A DNA stretch of 64,000 nucleotides from contig NC_092091.1 of the NCBI RefSeq assembly GCF_045679555.1, positions 83,073,953 to 83,137,952 on the forward strand, given 5' to 3'. This stretch comes from Salvelinus alpinus (taxonomy: Eukaryota > Chordata > Actinopteri > Salmoniformes > Salmonidae). Every line of letters begins with the position of its first letter. The first letter of the stretch is position 1. Below the pieces are notes generated by a model, which worked only from the letters and a program-made list of their open reading frames with translations, did no database searches and was not told the DNA's origin. Of this stretch, positions 39,701 to 53,100 are shown piece after piece. Position numbers and translations under genes: made by a program.

Positions 39701-41644
39701 AAGATCAGTGTGTAGGGAAAAGCTGGTGTTGCTACAGCAGTAAACATGGATCAGTACAACACTAGGCCCTGTTACAGTGTGAGGAACCAGGCACGTGGGG
39801 AGTGAGGCCCAGGGTTCGCAGGACTTCTCCCCAGAGACTGACACCTATTTCTGGGCTGGAATCAACCTCGGGCTACCCTTGTTGGTCCTTTGTGGTTCTA
39901 TGTTGTGGGGATCACTGAGAGTTGTGGTTAAAATAGTTTGGAACTTGGTATTGGATTAAAGCGTCCTGTAAAATATCATATGACCGTTGTAACTCAACTC
40001 CTACAATGTTTTCTATCTCCCTACACCCTCTCTCTGTCTCTCTCCAGTCTGTCCAATGGGCAGTGGTGCCAGTAGACTCTACAGCTCCCTGACCCAGACC
40101 CTAGTCAACAACAGCACCACTACCACCCCGCTGGCCCATCACCAGGACCCCCAGCACCCCTCCCCCTCACAGGGGTGTCACTCTCCCCCGGAGTACCCCG
40201 CGGACCCCCTGGAGCTGCTGAGGGAGTGTGAGGAGGCTCTACGGGACAGGCCTCCTCGCCTCCTCAGAGCCTTCATCTCCCCCGGGGAGGAAGTGGACAA
40301 CAGTGCCACCCAGAGGACCATCAGGGTTATGCAGTGGAACATACTGGCTCAAGGTAAATACGTTTTCTTTATTGTAGCCTTTCTTTAGCAAATATAATCA
40401 TGAACGTTTCATCTCATTCAGGGTTATTAAATGGTATATTATTGCTCATTTTAATTGGCATCAAGGACAGTGAGATGGATAGATTGACAGATGAATTCTC
40501 TCTCTCCCTCCAGCTCTAGGTGAAGGGATGGACAGTTTCGTCAACTGTCCCCTGGAAGCCCTGAACTGGGCAGAGCGTAAATACCTCATCCTAGAAGAGA
40601 TCCTCACCTACCGACCTCACATCCTGTGTCTACAGGAAGTCGACCACTACTACGACACCTTCCAGCCAATCCTGGCCGGCCTGGGTTACCGCGGCAACTT
40701 CTGCCCCAAGCCCTGGTCTCCATGCTTGGATGTGGAGGGCAACAACGGGCCGGATGGGTGTGCTCTGTTCTATGATGAAGCCCGGTTTGACTTGGTGGAT
40801 AGTGTGAATGTCCGGCTGTGTGCTGTTTTAATACCCACCAACCAGGTTTGTAAAACTAAGCTAGTTTAAATGTCCTTTCTTCCTTGAGGTAATCACTGGT
40901 CTGACCGTAATATGATGGAAACTCTGATTTCCAAGCACAGAGATTACCTCAAGGAATGAAGGATTCCAACAGGATCCTATTTTATAACAGGCAAAAGTGG
41001 TCAACCCTCCTCCTGGACAGCTACTGTTTGTGTAGATTGTTAAAAATACAGACTGGAACGTAACCCTTAACTGTTTTATGCAATTGTCTTCCCTACAGGT
41101 GGCTGTCGTCACGACGCTGCGGTGCAGGGTGACAGGCCGGCGGCTGTGTGTTGCCGTGACGCACCTCAAAGCCCGGAGCGGCTGGGAATGTCTCCGTAGT
41201 GCCCAGGGTTCCGACCTTCTCCGGAACCTCACCACCCTCACCCAATCACCAGGGGGTCCTTCGGGTCCCACAGGCATCGTCCCAGACACCCCTCTCCTTG
41301 TCTGCGGGGACTTCAACGCTGTGCCTTCCGAGGACGTCTACCAACGTTTCGCCTCGTCACCGTTGATCCTTGACTCGGCCTATAAACGGTTAAGCCGGGA
41401 CGGGCTTTCGGAACCGGCCTACACCACGTGGAAGATCCGGCCGACGGGAGAATGTTGTACCACATTGGATTATATCTGGTACTCTAGAGAAGCGTTCAGC
41501 GTGGACGCCGTGTTGGATATGCCTACAGAGGAACAGATTGGCCCTAACAGGCTTCCGTCGTACAACTACCCCTCCGATCACCTCTCGCTGGTGTGTGACT
41601 TCAGCTTTAAAAAGCAGGAGGATCACATGGACACTTTTGATTGA
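36789..41644 (+). CDS. noct: Nocturnin, NADP(H) 2'-phosphatase of the EEP family
   Basis: Four coding exons: 36,789-36,804, 40,048-40,353, 40,514-40,845 and 41,099-41,644. All junctions are GT-AG and in frame, totalling 399 residues. Exon 1 encodes only 'MMETM' plus one base; after splicing the protein reads 'MMETMVCPMGSGASRLYSSL', close to human '..VCSMGTGTSRLYS'. The exonuclease-endonuclease-phosphatase fold shows N103 in 'QWNILAQ', E149 in 'CLQEVDHYYDTF', 'KPWSPCLDVEGNNGPDGC', 'VTHLKARSGWE', D289/N291 in 'CGDFNA', D342 in 'LDYIWY' and H379 in 'YPSDHLSLV'; every catalytic position is intact. Family knowledge: a rhythmically expressed enzyme that removes the 2'-phosphate of NADP(H), earlier described as a deadenylase. 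The predicted start lacks the longer mitochondrial leader of the mammalian long form. A Gly/Pro-containing loop before 'CGDFNA' is about 11 residues longer than in human. elf2 follows tail to tail. Confidence 0.95.
37529..37575. repeat. 14-bp repeat, 3 copies (noct intron 1)
   Basis: 'gacctggttaccga' and close variants repeat three times within noct intron 1. Confidence 0.85.
37675..38345. repeat. 28-bp minisatellite, about 23 copies (noct intron 1)
   Basis: Unit core 'gacatatgggccagagtgag', then 'gtcggcag'. Minus-strand frames with a 28-residue periodicity (three units) are open in more than one frame and are artefacts. Confidence 0.97.
38350..38705. repeat. 51-bp minisatellite, about 7 copies (noct intron 1)
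   Basis: Unit core 'gagctgggagatgtagtcct', then 'actagaaactgagccttgcc' and 'tgtccatgtga'. It directly abuts the 28-bp array. Confidence 0.96.
39125..39420. repeat. 57-bp repeat, 5 copies (noct intron 1)
   Basis: Unit core 'cacacaccgtctgatagtcc', then 'acccatagatgtcctactca' and 'gatagttttctgtgaaa'. One copy lacks 'accc'. Confidence 0.95.
39640..39716. mobile_element. Foldback element fragment (noct intron 1)
   Basis: 'cagatctaggatcagcttcc' and 'actgacctaagatcagtgtg' are the diverged arms of the same foldback family seen at 9440-9552. Confidence 0.5.
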
Positions 41645-44138: not shown

Positions 44139-47100
44139 TCAACACTCCGGATCTTCTGATTTGATCTCAGGCAGGACCTCTTCTGATTGGACGACTACCG
44201 GGATGATCTCCGGTAACGCCGTCTGGACGGGGAGGGCCTGTAGCGACACCGTTTGAACGGTCAGCGTCTTGGCTTGCTGCTGCTGCTGCGGTTCTCTCAT
44301 TGCCGTGGCAGATCTCTTGATGACGCCGCTGATGATATGGGATGCCGCCACCGGAGCGCTCTGATTGGCTGTCGTCGTCACGGTGACAACTGCTGTCCCG
44401 GTCCCGCCACCTTGCGTCGTCGTGACGATATGATGTGTCTGTTGTTGATGATGATGCAGCGTAGTGGGAACAGCCAGCCTCATCACCTTGGTCACAGGGG
44501 ATACAATTTGTAATTACATGAATGAAGACAATGTTCAAATTTGTAACAAAAATACATACACAAAAAACACATTTGAAGTCTGTGCCCAAATGCAATACTT
44601 TTTTACTTGCATTTCAGTATCTTGTGATGTTTCAAAGTATGTTTCCCAATTTCTAGCTTAAAATGGCCAATAAAAAAAACGATATATTTTTTAAAAGTCA
44701 CCTGTGTCCCTGCAGCCATGGTAGCCATGGTAACATGAGGTGCCAGGGCTCGTACCCCCCAGGAGTTTGTCCCGCCCAGGAGAGAGATGCTGCCCGGGGA
44801 GCCCCCCAGGCCAGGCTTGGTCTGCTGCTGGTACTGGGCCAGCTGGTGGGCTGGGATGGTGATGATCTTAGCCAGTTGGACCGTGATCTTGTCTCCGTTC
44901 TCCGCTGTGGCTGGAACCATGGTGGGAATGGTCTGGATCACAACCTGGAGAGAAGAGATGAACAGGTCTACACATTCTAGATCTATACAGAGTGGGGGGG
45001 GGGGGTCTGGATCACAACCTGGAGAGAAGAGATTAACAGGTCTACACATTCTAGATCTATACAACGTGGGGGGGGTCTGATCACAACCTGGAGAGAAGAG
45101 ATTAACAGGTCTACACATTCTAGATCTATACAACGTGGGGGGGGGGGTCTGATCACAACCTGGAGAGAAGAGATTAACAGGTCTACACATTCTAGATCTA
45201 TACAGAGGTGGGGGGGGTCTGATTACAACCTAGAGAAGAGATACGGTCAGGAACAGGTCTACTCATTCTAGATCTATACAGAGTGGGGGGGGGGGGGTCT
45301 GATTACAACAGGCAAAATAATTATGATGTAGAAGGTAAAGGATTAGATCTAGTCATTTTAATTTCATGAGATCAAAAGATAATATGGTTTCCAAGATTCC
45401 AGTTTTGAATCGTGGACTTGATGGTTAGGATGAGGCGTGCCTGCGTAGCTCAGTCAACCGGTCCACTCTGTCCACACTACAGAGCAGCTAGCTGACACAC
45501 CACCTGGCGTGGTTACCCACCTTCGGTTGGGCGTTCGCGTTGCCCGTTGCCGTGCCGATGGGAGAGGCGTTGGCCAATTGGTAAGTCGTTCGGCCTCCCG
45601 ACATCCCTGGCGCCTGTTGCACGGCGACCGTTGAGATCTTCTGGCCCAGTGACGTTGTCATGACTACAGGCACTTGCATGGCAACCCGTACAGTCCTGGG
45701 GACGGAAACAATAACAAAATGGAGTCAGTGACAAAGTTTTGTAAATACAGACTTACTAGATATCACTAGATAGATAAAGTATTTTACATTCAGCATGAAA
45801 CCCCCAGAGTGAATTGTATGTTTCAGGGTCAGTATCAGGGTGTGTCTCTAACCTGGGTCCTGAGGAAGTGGGGATGATGGCCGTGTGAGAATGCTGCGTC
45901 TGGGTTCCGTCTGGCGCCGTGGAAATGGTCACTATCCTCGGAACCCCCACTGCCGCCCCGCCCCCCGTCATCACCGCCTTGTTGCCCTTTGCAACCGGAG
46001 GATGGACCACGGTTCTAGTCCCACCCCTCAGGATGGTGGGCGTCGTGGCGAGCTCGGCCACATTCAGTATCGTCTCCGACGAGGGTAGGACTCTCTCGTG
46101 GTAAGACTTCTCTGAGCCAATAAGATCGTCCGATCTGGAGTCGGCCTTGTCGTCCTCGATGACAACGATGTTCTTGGGCATCTCCTTAAACTGGTAGACC
46201 AGCCGCTGACCTTCGACCTTGGCCAGTATACCACGCTGGTAGTAGTACCTGGTAGAGAGGGAGGGAGAGAGGGGATAGGGAGAGAGGAGAGGGGATAGGG
46301 AGAGAGGAGGGGGGATAGGGAGAGAGGAGGGGGGATAGGGAGAGAGGAGAGGGGATAGGGAGAGAGGAGAGGGGATAGGGAGAGAGGATAGGGAGAGAGG
46401 AGAGGGGATAGGGAGAGAGGAGGGGGGATAGGGAGAGAGGAGGGGGGATAGGGAGAGAGGAGGGGGGATAGGGAGAGAGGAGAGGGGAGGGAGAGGGAGG
46501 GGGGATAGGGAGGGGGGATAGGGAGAGAGGATAGGGAGAGAGGATAGGGAGAGAGGAGAGGGGATAGGGAGAGAGGAGAGGGGATAGGGAGAGAGGAGAG
46601 GGGATAGGGAGAGAGGAGAGGGGAGAGGGAGAGAGGAGAGGGGATAGGGAGAGAGGAGAGGGGATAGGGAGAGAGGAGAGGGGATAGGGAGAGAGGAGAG
46701 GGGATAGGGAGAGAGGAGAGGGGATAGGGAGAGAGGAGAGGGGATAGGGAGAGAGGAGGGGATAGGGAGAGAGGAGAGGGGATAGGGAGAGAGGAGGGGG
46801 GATAGGGAGAGAGGAGAGGGGATAGGGAGAGAGGAGAGGGGATAGGGAGAGAGGATAGGGAGAGAGGAGAGGGGATAGGGAGAGAGGAGAGGGGATAGGG
46901 AGAGAGGAGAGGGGATAGGGAGAGAGGAGAGGGGATAGGGAGAGAGGAGAGGGGATAGGGAGAGAGGAGAGGGGATAGGGAGAGAGGAGAGGGGATAGGG
47001 AGAGAGGAGAGGGGATAGGGAGAGAGGAGAGGGGATAGGGAGAGAGGAGAGGAGATAGGGAGAGAGGAGAGGGGATAGGGAGAGAGGAGAGGGGATAGGG

Positions 47101-50100
47101 AGAGAGGAGAGGGGATAGGGAGAGAGGAGAGGGGATAGGGAGAGAGGAGAGGGGATAGGGAGAGAGGAGAGGGGATAGGGAGAGAGGAGAGGGGATAGGG
47201 AGAGAGGAGAGGGGATAGGGAGAGAGGAGAGGGGATAGGGAGAGAGGAGAGGGGATAGGGAGAGAGGAGAGGGGATAGGGAGAGAGGAGGGGGAATGGTA
47301 AAGTTCAGACTGAACTGGAAGTGGCATCCAGCCGGTCATAACTGACAAAAACACAAACACTAATGTTCCTCGGAGGAACTCATCCAACCAACAGTATTCC
47401 CCAAACCAACAACCCACACATCTAACTCAGTTAAACCCTCTTTCACAGTCAATGCCAGTCCATTTCAAGTGCTAGACGGTTATAGGGTAAGCCCTCACCT
47501 CAGAGCCCGTCCCATGGTCTCATAGTTCATGTCAGGCTTGTTCTTGTGTTTACCCCACAGCTTGGACACGGCCTTGGAGTCCACCAGCTTGAAGATGCCC
47601 TTCTCCCTCTGAGTCCACTTGATGTACCTGGGACACGTGTTCTTGTCCTGGAGTAAGTCTAACAGGAACTCCCACAGGTACGTGGTGCTGCCTGGGGGAA
47701 CAGAGACAGACAGGTCGGTCAACAGGGAGACAATATTTATCCCTCTCTCTAAGTTCACAGGCTTAAACAACAGGGAGACAATATTTATCCCTCTCTCTAA
47801 GTTTACAGGCTTAAACAACAGGGAGACAATATTTATCCCTCTCTCTAAGTTTACAGGCTTAAACAACAGGGAGACAATATTTATCCCTCTCTCTAAGTTC
47901 ACAGGCTTAAACAACGGGTTAACGTCACAAAGAATATGGTTGATGAAAACTTGGTTGTGGTAAAATGAAGTCCAACCCCCTAATCAACACATGAAATCCT
48001 AGGAGTTGATGTGTCCTTTCTATATATTTGGTGTGTCCCACCTTTTCCTTCTCTGGGTTTCTTCTTGATGCCGAGGTCCGGGGATCCGTTGGACACAGCA
48101 GGCTGGGGAGTCTTTGGCTTCCTCCCTGCTACACAGACACGATACCAATAAAGTTTTTCAAACTAAATCAAATCATTTGACGAAGACATGAGCATTTCAC
48201 ATTGCGTGCAATCTCCCAATATGCCAATAGACGGCGCTCTTTCTGTCTACAAGATACAGCCAGTCTGACAAGTCAGTCCTATTTACCATCAACATCCTGT
48301 CTGCAAGATACAGCCAGTCTGACAAGTCAGTCCTATTTACCATCAACATCCTGTCTGCAAGATACAGCCAGTCTGACAAGTCAGTCCTATTTACCATCAA
48401 CATCCTGTCTATAAGATACAGCCAGTCTGACAAGTCAGTCCTATTTACCATCAACATCCTGTCTATAAGACACAGCCAGTCTGACAAGTCAGTCCTATTT
48501 ACCATCAACATCCTGTCTACAAGATACAGCCAGTCTGACAAGTCAGTCCTATTTAACAACATCCTGTCTATAAGATACAGCCAGTCTGACAAGTCAGTCC
48601 TATTTACCATCAACATCCTGTCTACAAGATACAGCCAGTCTGACAAGTCAGTCCTATTTACCATCAACATCCTGTCTACAAGATACAGCCAGTCTGACAA
48701 GTCAGTCCTATTTACCATCAACATCCTGTCTACAAGACACAGCCAGTCTGACAAGTCAGTCCTATTTACCATCATTATCTTTACAGTACTGTTATCATTA
48801 AAACCATTTAGGCTCTTTAGCATTACTTTGATATCTTAAATCAACAGCCGGTATCTTAATCAACAGCCGGTATCTTAATCAACAGCCGGTATCTTAATCA
48901 ACAGCCGGTATCTTAATCAACAGCCGGTATCTTAATCAACCGCCGGTATCTTAATCAACCGCCGGTATCTTAATCAACCGCCGGTATCTTAATCAACAGC
49001 CGGTATCTTAATCAACCGCCGGTATCTTAATCAACCGCCGGTATCTTAATCAACCGCCGGTATCTTAATCAACCGCCGGTATCTTAATCAACCGCCGGTA
49101 TCTTAATCAACCGCCGGTATCTTAATCAACCGCCGGTATCTTAATCAACCGCCGGTATCTTAATCAACCGCCGGTATCTTAATCAACCGCCGGTATCTTA
49201 ATCAACCGCCGGTATCTTAATCAACCGCCGGTATCTTAATCAACCGCCGGTATCTTAATCAACCGCCGGTATCTTAATCAACAGCCGGTATCTTAATCAA
49301 CCGCCGGTATCTTAATCAACCGCCGGTATCTTAATCAACCGCCGGTATCTTAATCAACAGCCGGTATCTTAATCAACAGCCGGTATCTTAATCAACAGCC
49401 GGTATCTTAATCAACCGCCGGTATCTTAATCAACCGCCGGTATCTTAATCAACAGCCGGTATCTTAATCAACCGCCGGTATCTTAATCAACCGCCGGTAT
49501 CTTAATCAACCGCCGGTATCTTAATCAACCGCCGGTATCTTAATCAACCGCCGGTATCTTAATCAACCGCCGGTATCTTAATCAACCGCCGGTATCTTAA
49601 TCAACCGCCGGTATCTTAATCAACCGCCGGTATCTTAATCAACAGCCGGTATCTTAATCAACAGCCGGTATCTTAATCAACCGCCGGTATCTTAATCAAC
49701 CGCCGGTATCTTAATCAACCGCCGGTATCTTAATCAACAGCCGGTATCTTAATCAACAGCCGGTATCTTAATCAACAGCCGGTATCTTAATCAACCGCCG
49801 GTATCTTAATCAACAGCCGGTATCTTAATCAACAGCCGGTATCTTAATCAACAGCCGGTATCTTAATCAACAGCCGGTATCTTAATCAACAGCCGGTATC
49901 TTAATCAACAGCCGGTATCTTAATCAACAGCCAGTATCTTAATCAACAGCCAGTATCTTTGGGTAGTATTATGGAAAGTTTCTTGATTTCTCAGTGGATA
50001 GCCAGTATTCTATTCTGTCTTAGAGTCATCTTAACCTTTCTGACAGGTTGGTGGACAGGCTCTGGTTCCTCTAGGAGGGTGACCCCCATGTCCTCATCAC

Positions 50101-53100
50101 TAACCTTTCTTCTTCCTGACAGGTTGGTGGACAGGCTCTGGTTCCTCTAGGAGGGTGACCATGTCCTCATCACTAACCTTTCTTCTTCCTGACAGGTTGG
50201 TGGACAGGCTCTGGTTCCTCTAGGAGGGTGACCCCCATGTCCTCATCACTAACCTTTCTTCTTCCTGACAGGTTGGTGGTCAGGCTCTGGTTCCTCTAGG
50301 AGGGTGACCATGTCCTCATCACTAACCTTTCTTCTTCNNNNNNNNNNNNNNNNNNNNNNNNNNNNNNNNNNNNNNNNNNNNNNNNNNNNNNNNNNNNNNN
50401 NNNNNNNNNNNNNNNNNNNNNNNNNNNNNNNNNNNNNCTGACAGGTTGGAGGACAGGCTCTGGTTCCTCTAGGAGGGTGACCATGTCCTCATCACTAACC
50501 TTTCTTCTTCCTGACAGGTTGGTGGACAGGCTCTGGTTCCTCTAGGAGGGTGACCATGTCCTCATCACTAACCTTTCTTCTTCCTGACAGGTTGGTGGAC
50601 AGGCTCTGGTTCCTCTAGGAGGGTGACCATGTCCTCATCACTAACCTTTCTTCTTCCTGACAGGTTGGAGGACAGGCTCTGGTTCCTCTAGGAGGGTGAC
50701 CATGTCCTCATCACTAACCTTTCTTCTTCCTGACAGGTTGGTGAACAGGCTCTGGTTCCTCTAGGAGGGTGACCATGTCCTCATCACTAACCTTTCTTCT
50801 TCCTGACAGGTTGGAGGACAGGCTCTGGTTCCTCTAGGAGGGTGACCCCCATGTCCTCATCACTAACCTTTCTTCTTCCTGACAGGTTGGTGGACAGGCT
50901 CTGGTTCCTCTAGGAGGGTGACCCCCATGTCCTCATCACTAACCTTTCTTCTTCCTGACAGGTTGGTGGACAGGCTCTGGTTCCTCTAGGAGGGTGACCA
51001 TGTCCTCATCACTAACCTTTCTTCTTCCCGACAGGTTGGTGGTCAGGCTTTGGTTCCTCTAGGAGGGTGACCATGTCCTCATCACTAACCTTTCTTCTTC
51101 CTGACAGGTTGGTGGACAGGCTCTGGTTCCTCTAGGAGGGTGACCATGTCCTCATCACTAACCTTTCTTCTTCCTGACAGGTTGGAGGACAGGCTCTGGT
51201 TCCTCTAGGATGGTGACCATGTCCTCATCACTAACCTTTCTTCTTCCTGACAGGTTGGTGGACAGGCTCTGGTTCCTCTAGGAGGGTGACCATGTCCTCA
51301 TCACTAACCTTTCTTCTTCCTGACAGGTTGGTGGACAGGCTCTGGTTCCTCTAGGAGGGTGACCATGTCCTCATCACTAACCTTTCTTCTTCCTGACAGG
51401 TTGGTGGTCAGGCTCTGGTTCCTCTAGGAGGGTGATCATGTCCTCATCACTAACCTTTCTTCTTCCTGACAGGTTGGTGGACAGGCTCTGGTTCCTCTAG
51501 GAGGGTGACCATGTCCTCATCACTAACCTTTCTTCTTCCTGACAGGTTGGTGGTCAGGCTCTGGTTCCTCTAGGAGGGTGACCATGTCCTCATCACTAAC
51601 CTTTCTTCTTCCTGACAGGTTGGTGGACAGGCTCGGGTTCCTCTAGGAGGGTGACCCCCATGTCCTCATCACTAACCTTTCTTCTTCCTGACAGGTTGGT
51701 GGACAGGCTCTGGTTCCTCTAGGAGGGTGACCCCCATGTCCTCATCACTAACCTTTCTTCTTCCTGACAGGTTGGAGGACAGGCTCTGGTTCCTCTAGGA
51801 GGGTGACCATGTCCTCATCACTAACCTTTCTTCTTCCTGACAGGTTGGTGGACAGGCTCTGAATCCTCTAGGAGGGTGACCCCCATGTCCTCATCACTAA
51901 CCTTTCTTCTTCCTGACAGGTTGGAGGACAGGCTCTGGTTCCTCTAGGAGGGTGACCACCATGTCCTCATCACTAACCTTTCTTCTTCCTGACAGGTTGG
52001 TGGACAGGCTCTGGTTCCTCTAGGAGGGTGACCCCCATGTCCTCATCACTAACCTTTCTTCTTCCTGACAGGTTGGAGGACAGGCTCTGGTTCCTCTAGG
52101 AGGGTGACCATGTCCTCATCACTAACCTTTCTTCTTCCTGACAGGTTGATGGTCAAGCTCTGATTCGTCTGGTTCCTCTAGGAGGGTGACCTCCATGTCC
52201 TCATCCATACAGTCTTCCGTAGACACCTCCACCACAGTCTCGGTCATCACGTCTGGACGCATCGCAGCGTGGATGAAGTCTGGGGTGGTCACACACCCTG
52301 CCGGGATGAACACATCTAGTGGGACAAGAGGGAAAACGTTAAGAAGAGAGAAAGTGTGTGTGTAGTGTGTGTTCTGGTGGATATGACGTTGTGTGAACAA
52401 CAACATTCTTAAGAAATCTGAGATCTATGACATCAATGATGTCTCTCTGTTCTTGTCTCTCAGCTTATGGATGGAATATGGCATGGTGAATAAAAATAAA
52501 ATATCCAATCTAGTGTGTGTGTGTTAGTTACCTGGGCTGCGGTCCCCTCTCAGGCTGGTAAAAGAGTCCATGTGCAGCAGAGCCTCGGCAGCCTCGATGG
52601 TCTTATCAGAACAGTAGATACTGGTGCCAGACTGTTGGTAATGGACGGACGCCTCCACTGAAACAGAAAACACACGTTAGTAAAGGTGAAAAGCACCATT
52701 GCAGGTCTGTACAGCTGGTGTAGACATTTCATGACTTGTACAGTACAGAGGGGTTCTGATGCATCCTACTGGAAATAACAGTTGTGTTTGGTTACTTCAG
52801 ACTGTTACCACGCTTTGTTTTTATTGTGAAAACACTGTCGGCGTTCCACCATTAACGGTTTACTACCAAACTAAAGTTTGAGACACTTGTTTACTACACT
52901 TCACACAGGACTTCTAAAGTCTGTCAAAGCTGACATTCTCTCTCTGGCGCCCCCTAGCAACCTTTCCCTCTCCAGCTACTATGGCATAACTGATGTAGGA
53001 TCAGCTGCAAATAAAAGTCCTATTCTTTACCACTATGACCTACAGCATCAGACTGACCTTAAAACAGATGTTACAGAACATTAAGTAACTAACTAACCAT

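Follow-up and report, generated by a model that had tools for sequence, protein, structure and literature searches.

The window analysed here is a 64,000-nt stretch (G000:C6:83073953-83137952) of a 2.37-Gb genome in 928 contigs. On its minus strand lies a gene with a Pfam Elf-1_N match of 32 residues (25.7 bits, cut-off 22.9), which we take to be elf2; the name and the ETS domain of this gene are our own assignment and do not come from a database match. Its ten coding exons form a frame of 693 codons followed by one terminal stop, and all the junctions are GT-AG. One of these exons, E_b, ends with CCTGTCAGGAAGAAGAAAG (in longer form AAGAAGAAAG) followed by the donor GTTAGT, and this exon end together with its donor is repeated in tandem in the intron that separates E_b from the next exon, E_c. 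The features are collected in Table 1.

Table 1. Features of the elf2 locus, with positions counted from the first letter of the window.
Feature	Position	Strand	Basis or remark
Exon E_b (elf2 coding; source of the repeat unit)	52127..52315	-	Intact joined frame, GT-AG junctions, C4 and C7 paralogous exons ending alike
True 5' splice site of E_b, GTTAGT	52121..52126	-	Joins the 693-codon open frame; codons beyond are GGT TAG
Donor array, 27 copies of 73/76 nt (67/70 exon + 6 intron), 26 with GTTAGT	50032..52120	-	Repeat anatomy, Tandem Repeats Finder (TRF)
100-N assembly gap within the donor array, in exact repeat register	50338..50437	.	Sequence
Terminal degenerate copy of the donor array, 7-nt loss, GTTAAG replacing GTTAGT	50032..50098	-	Copy comparison
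Exon E_c (next elf2 exon, to which E_b must join)	48042..48125	-	E_b-E_c intron of 4,001 nt
AG-free zone before the E_e acceptor, 1,059 nt, 95% pyrimidine	46251..47309	-	Mostly made by a 20-bp array, 46258-47294
Acceptor array, 5.2 copies (TRF) of a 72-nt unit with 14-15 nt of E_g and its 3' splice site	44930..45309	-	TRF, sequence
Exon E_g (elf2; source of the acceptor array)	44702..44944	-	Joined frame

Anatomy of the donor array

The array consists of 25 full copies, one copy broken by the 100-N gap and one truncated copy, laid out as GATGAGGACATG...AAAGGTTAGT and running from 52120 down to 50032. The unit start GATGAGGACATG was found 28 times, in the exon and in the 27 copies, at a spacing of 73 or 76 nt, with the exceptions of 85 nt from the exon and 173 nt across the gap (Ns included). 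AAAGGTTAGT was found 27 times, 26 of them within the array and the other at the true junction, and an exon-intron boundary, with the exon end followed by GTTAGT, is present in 26 of the 27 units. A preliminary description of this DNA had reported about 27 tandem 73/76-bp copies, each with GTTAGT; the copy number stood, but the last copy has lost the motif. It had also divided the unit into 68-71 bp of exon and about 5 bp of intron, which is about one base off, although the unit is indeed almost wholly derived from the exon. A 5-nt match at the seam makes the exon/intron border within the unit ambiguous.

On the two sides of the gap, the array reached TRF scores of 3116 and 540, with 95% matches. 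Its head-to-tail and highly alike units of 73/76 bp make it a minisatellite, understood here as tandem head-to-tail units of roughly 10-100 bp that are highly alike. Chance similarity was ruled out by the TRF scores and the 27 registered copies. The array was also ruled out as a coding exon, since it is preceded by TAG in frame and since each unit length, 73 or 76, leaves a remainder of 1 when divided by 3. The true copy number is uncertain, because the 100-N gap lies inside the array and in register.

Using an exact 25-mer that covers unit and donor, we obtained 25 genome-wide matches, all of them at this locus and one at the true junction. No dispersed introner-like copies were found elsewhere in the genome by this exact 25-mer, which diverged copies would escape. 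A 471-nt stretch (51740-52210), which takes in the end of the exon and the first copies, was predicted to fold no better than 100 shuffles (z 0.37).

Copies are more similar to each other than to the exon

The mean number of substitutions was 1.32 among the 25 full copies and 3.72 between the exon and a copy (gap-broken and truncated copies excluded, gap columns ignored). All the 26 gap-free copies are devoid of 9 nt of the exon, which sit between two CAGA words, and a deletion in a founder copy would be the simpler direction for this difference. These results bear out the preliminary description, in which the copies were closer to each other than to an exon 9 nt longer. Its further proposal, an array homogenising separately, stood only in part: the copies are distinct from the exon, but separate homogenisation is unneeded, because expansion from one 9-nt-deleted copy suffices. 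The 73-nt copy type has lost 3 further nt, and types are interspersed along the array. Among the 26 gap-free copies we counted 13 sequence types, and neighbouring copies were hardly closer than random pairs (2.54 vs 2.68 differences, gap columns counted).

None of the 10 variable columns of the array falls within the donor 9-mer, an outcome with a chance of 0.27. This variable-column test supports neither donor-specific conservation nor selection on the donor.

The paralogs on C4 and C7 have the exon end and the intron

Two further genes, on contigs C4 and C7, have an ETS exon 97% identical to that of the C6 elf2, and such paired paralogs fit a genome-duplicated fish. In both of them the matching exon ends with AAGAAGAAGAAAG followed by GTCTGCC, and the intron at the same place measures about 135 nt (C4) and 960 nt (C7). 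No TRF array was detected in these matching introns in the two 4.4-kb stretches scanned, the paralogs being distant; the sole array of these stretches, with a 19-bp unit, lies in the next intron of C7. Since the C4 and C7 exons end alike without an array, the exon end is old and the array, as far as seen, belongs to the C6 copy of elf2. A protein search with the C6 exon (E up to 10) returned nothing outside the C6 locus, where it had 11 matches; it found no further ohnolog of this exon, and it also missed the C4 and C7 exons, which had been located by position.

Array donors share the local sequence of the true donor

Identity between the 26 array donors and the true site extends 11-22 nt upstream and 18-168 nt downstream, in agreement with the dozens of near-identical 5' splice sites in series first reported. 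Predicted U1 pairing is equal for true and array donors (-7.5 kcal/mol), since they have the same letters, and both score equally on a splice weight table entered by hand. Among nine elf2 donors, predicted U1 pairing ranges from -7.4 to -13.4 kcal/mol, which places the E_b donor among the weakest. Given this local identity, the choice of the first site must come from position, wider context or transcription order.

Reading beyond the true E_b junction gives AAA GGT TAG, which confirms the immediate in-frame stop of the preliminary description. Use of any array donor would retain GGT TAG in frame and add a premature stop, a feature shared with poison exons and regulated unproductive splicing.

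Other splice signals of elf2 are linked to minisatellites

Two more introns of the C6 elf2 were concerned, giving three with splice signals inside or against minisatellites. Before exon E_g, the unit of the acceptor array is made of the intron end, the acceptor and 14-15 nt of the exon. It provides five AGs including the true one, four of them in the form CTCTTCTCTCCAG and the outermost one as CTCTAG. Of these, 45160, 45088 and 45019 would bring early stops if used as acceptors, while the outermost one (45230) would stay in frame with E_g and add 95 codons.

Before exon E_e, the 20-bp pyrimidine array has about 53 copies. The only YTNAY motif of the AG-free zone lies 1,052 nt away from the acceptor, and the AG-free stretch of the other eight elf2 acceptors is 1-91 nt. 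YTNAY is a loose guide, as two of these eight zones (E2, 86 nt; E_c, 1 nt) contain none. The zone before E_e points to a branch point that is very distant or degenerate.

The acceptor of E_c (48126-48133) ends with TGTAGCAG, of the NAGNAG type, and could add one codon.

Minisatellites in the region and in the genome

Minisatellite coverage was measured by TRF (unit of at least 10 bp, at least 3 copies). The window is 54% minisatellite, in 36 separate stretches when the donor array is counted once, or 37 if the gap splits it in two. As a background, 20 samples of 10 kb along C6 averaged 24%, with a median of 9%. The five C6 samples from 78 Mb to the contig end (L025-L029) reached 31-96%, and minisatellites are overgrown towards the C6 ends.

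When the seven elf2 arrays with a unit of at least 19 bp were placed blindly, 0.48 arrays spanning an exon edge were expected and 2 were seen; at least 2 were obtained in 7.8% of 20,000 trials (P = 0.078). With some exon ends off by up to 10 nt, the expectation was 0.47 and the proportion 7.6% (P = 0.076). Serial AGGTRAGT triplets (60-90 nt apart) were not in excess genome-wide: 12,058 were counted, and the reversed motif gave 13,629. Because the matches overlap, these figures count copies rather than arrays. The looser acceptor-like CTTNCAGGT triplet, which does not match the E_g acceptor itself, was about equal to its reversed form (2,846 vs 2,560). Donor arrays as an enriched genome-wide class are not supported by the triplet counts against the reversed motif. 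Blind seeding in a minisatellite-rich region is enough to explain the arrays, without being proven, because of the regional minisatellite excess, the placement result (P = 0.078) and the lack of triplet excess over the reversed motif.

A second consensus-donor array was observed on C1 (L043, G000:C1:5894800-5896300), with 21 copies of a 33-bp unit and a CAACAG/GTGAGT motif in each.

Origin of the array and alternative explanations

Overall, the array is probably a passive minisatellite that was seeded across the exon-intron junction, with the true donor still used and leakage to the later donors non-productive. It would have started with a tandem duplication across the elf2 junction, plausibly between the GATGA of the exon (TATGGATGAGG) and a GATGA just inside the intron, as the seam and the far end of the array suggest; the word is found beyond the array (TTAAGATGACTC). 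One copy would have lost the 9 nt between the two CAGA words, and this shortened form would have expanded to about 27 copies in a region overgrown with diverse minisatellites, carrying the donors along passively and with no selection for them. Splicing would join the true donor to E_c, because this donor lies 189 nt from the 3' splice site of its exon and would be transcribed first. Use of an array donor would add at least 73 nt opening with the in-frame TAG, and such an mRNA would presumably be destroyed by nonsense-mediated decay, which may be why the array is tolerated. In this account, we infer the origin steps, the donor choice and the decay, whereas the anatomy, the stop, the intact frame, the array-free paralogs, the regional excess and the lack of serial-donor excess over the reversed motif are observed.

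Several points weigh against a passive array. Use of the first donor is deduced from the sequence, and identical competing donors often favour the intron-proximal site. In the available part of one study, 5 of 10 tested exonic enhancers raised the use of the intron-proximal 5' site (PMC1877881); every copy of the array carries GAAGAAGAAAG, a putative enhancer at most. A zone of 39 columns, made of the donor and the purine-rich exon end, holds only 1 of the 10 variable columns (P = 0.006, zone picked post hoc), and this low variation is at most a hint of selection. Minisatellites are not confined to the chromosome ends, with single mid-contig C6 samples at up to 21%, and a sample at 3 Mb, near the other C6 end (L010), is at 49%. 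In addition, two junction-spanning arrays and one acceptor-abutting array in elf2 are somewhat above what blind seeding would give.

The array donors could also compete with the true donor as a rheostat, the copy number setting the unproductive share and tuning the Elf2 dose. This would agree with the identity of the 26 donors to the true site, which extends at least 11 nt upstream and 18 nt downstream, with their equal predicted U1 pairing and with the in-frame TAG that each later donor keeps. However, the array is not in the two paralogs, donor-specific constraint was not detected, and serial donor motifs are not above the reversed control genome-wide; we consider this explanation unlikely, and a dosage-control function is possible but unsupported. 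The broader proposal that the donor, acceptor and 1-kb pyrimidine arrays jointly set the productive share of elf2 mRNA through their fast-changing lengths appears very unlikely. Array donors might be used often enough that the C6 elf2 is being disabled while the C4 and C7 paralogs carry the function, as the two genes with a 97% identical ETS exon and the three C6 introns with splice signals in or against minisatellites would allow; but all ten exons of the C6 gene form an open frame with GT-AG junctions, which speaks for continued use, and we consider such a loss very unlikely.

Finally, assembly could have produced the number of copies or some of the array, two array-ending contigs having been joined by the 100-N gap, whose exact repeat register would agree with this. 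By contrast, the gap-free copies differ (13 types among 26), one end of the array enters the exon and the other a different intron sequence, and the exact 25-mer of unit and donor is at no other place in the assembly. An artefact is improbable; the array is surely present and its length is in doubt. A passive minisatellite across the junction is the reading that we retain.

Comparison with known systems

Internal tandem repeats have been described at exon-intron boundaries of human duplicated genes, where they can alter splicing; the variable ones have 30-bp units on average and 4 copies and, in the available part of the article, are said to yield novel introns (PMC2812944). They are the nearest known kind, as far as that part goes. 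The elf2 array resembles them in being repeated in tandem across the border of exon and intron, where it could affect splicing, and differs by its 73/76-bp unit, its about 27 copies, its pre-existing intron and its donor in 26 of 27 units. Among the open-licence literature matches listed, most subscription papers being outside this scope, we found no junction array of this copy number. The preliminary description knew of no described case with this copy number; uniqueness was over-read, because matches to three serial consensus donors are frequent in this genome and no more so than those of the reversed motif, and because of the human boundary repeats (PMC2812944).

In the Rogers model, introns are gained through tandem duplication of an AGGT-bearing exon sequence, as in potato RdRp; the accessible text also cites a multi-copy 24-bp case of fission yeast (PMC4974935). 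Tandem duplication of a sequence holding AG/GT is common to this model and to elf2, but a Rogers-type intron gain was ruled out, since the C4 and C7 paralogs have the intron at the same place. In sparid fish, the GH and MSTN-2 genes have intronic minisatellites (PMC3045353). In MSTN-2 intron 1, repeats polymorphic in length lie at the 5' end, as in the elf2 intron; a 150-bp block is present in MSTN-2 once or twice, and exon and donor content in the unit is not stated in the part of this source at hand (PMC3045353). Concerning the E_e acceptor, AG exclusion zones have been described with distant branch points, at most 400 nt away, and with one zone of 381 nt, according to the portion available (PMC1431707). 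The stretch before E_e is likewise long and AG-free before an acceptor, but it measures 1,059 nt, is made by a minisatellite and has no mapped branch point.

The structure is real and striking, and its value is that of a natural experiment. With elf2, exon definition and competition among 5' splice sites can be tested in vivo on a gene as nature provides it, and the gene gives the same opportunity for serial acceptors and for an AG-free run of 1,059 nt. Should junction arrays prove common in fish genomes rich in minisatellites, both gene models and expression work must take them into account. If the proposal of jointly acting arrays were true, such length-tuned splice junctions could generally be a source of heritable expression variation in minisatellite-rich genomes.

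Neighbouring exons

No array copies were found at the edges of the three exons tested among those of the plus strand at 40080-41640, whose ranges were guessed from open frames. These plus-strand exons resemble nocturnin, a name that we presume.

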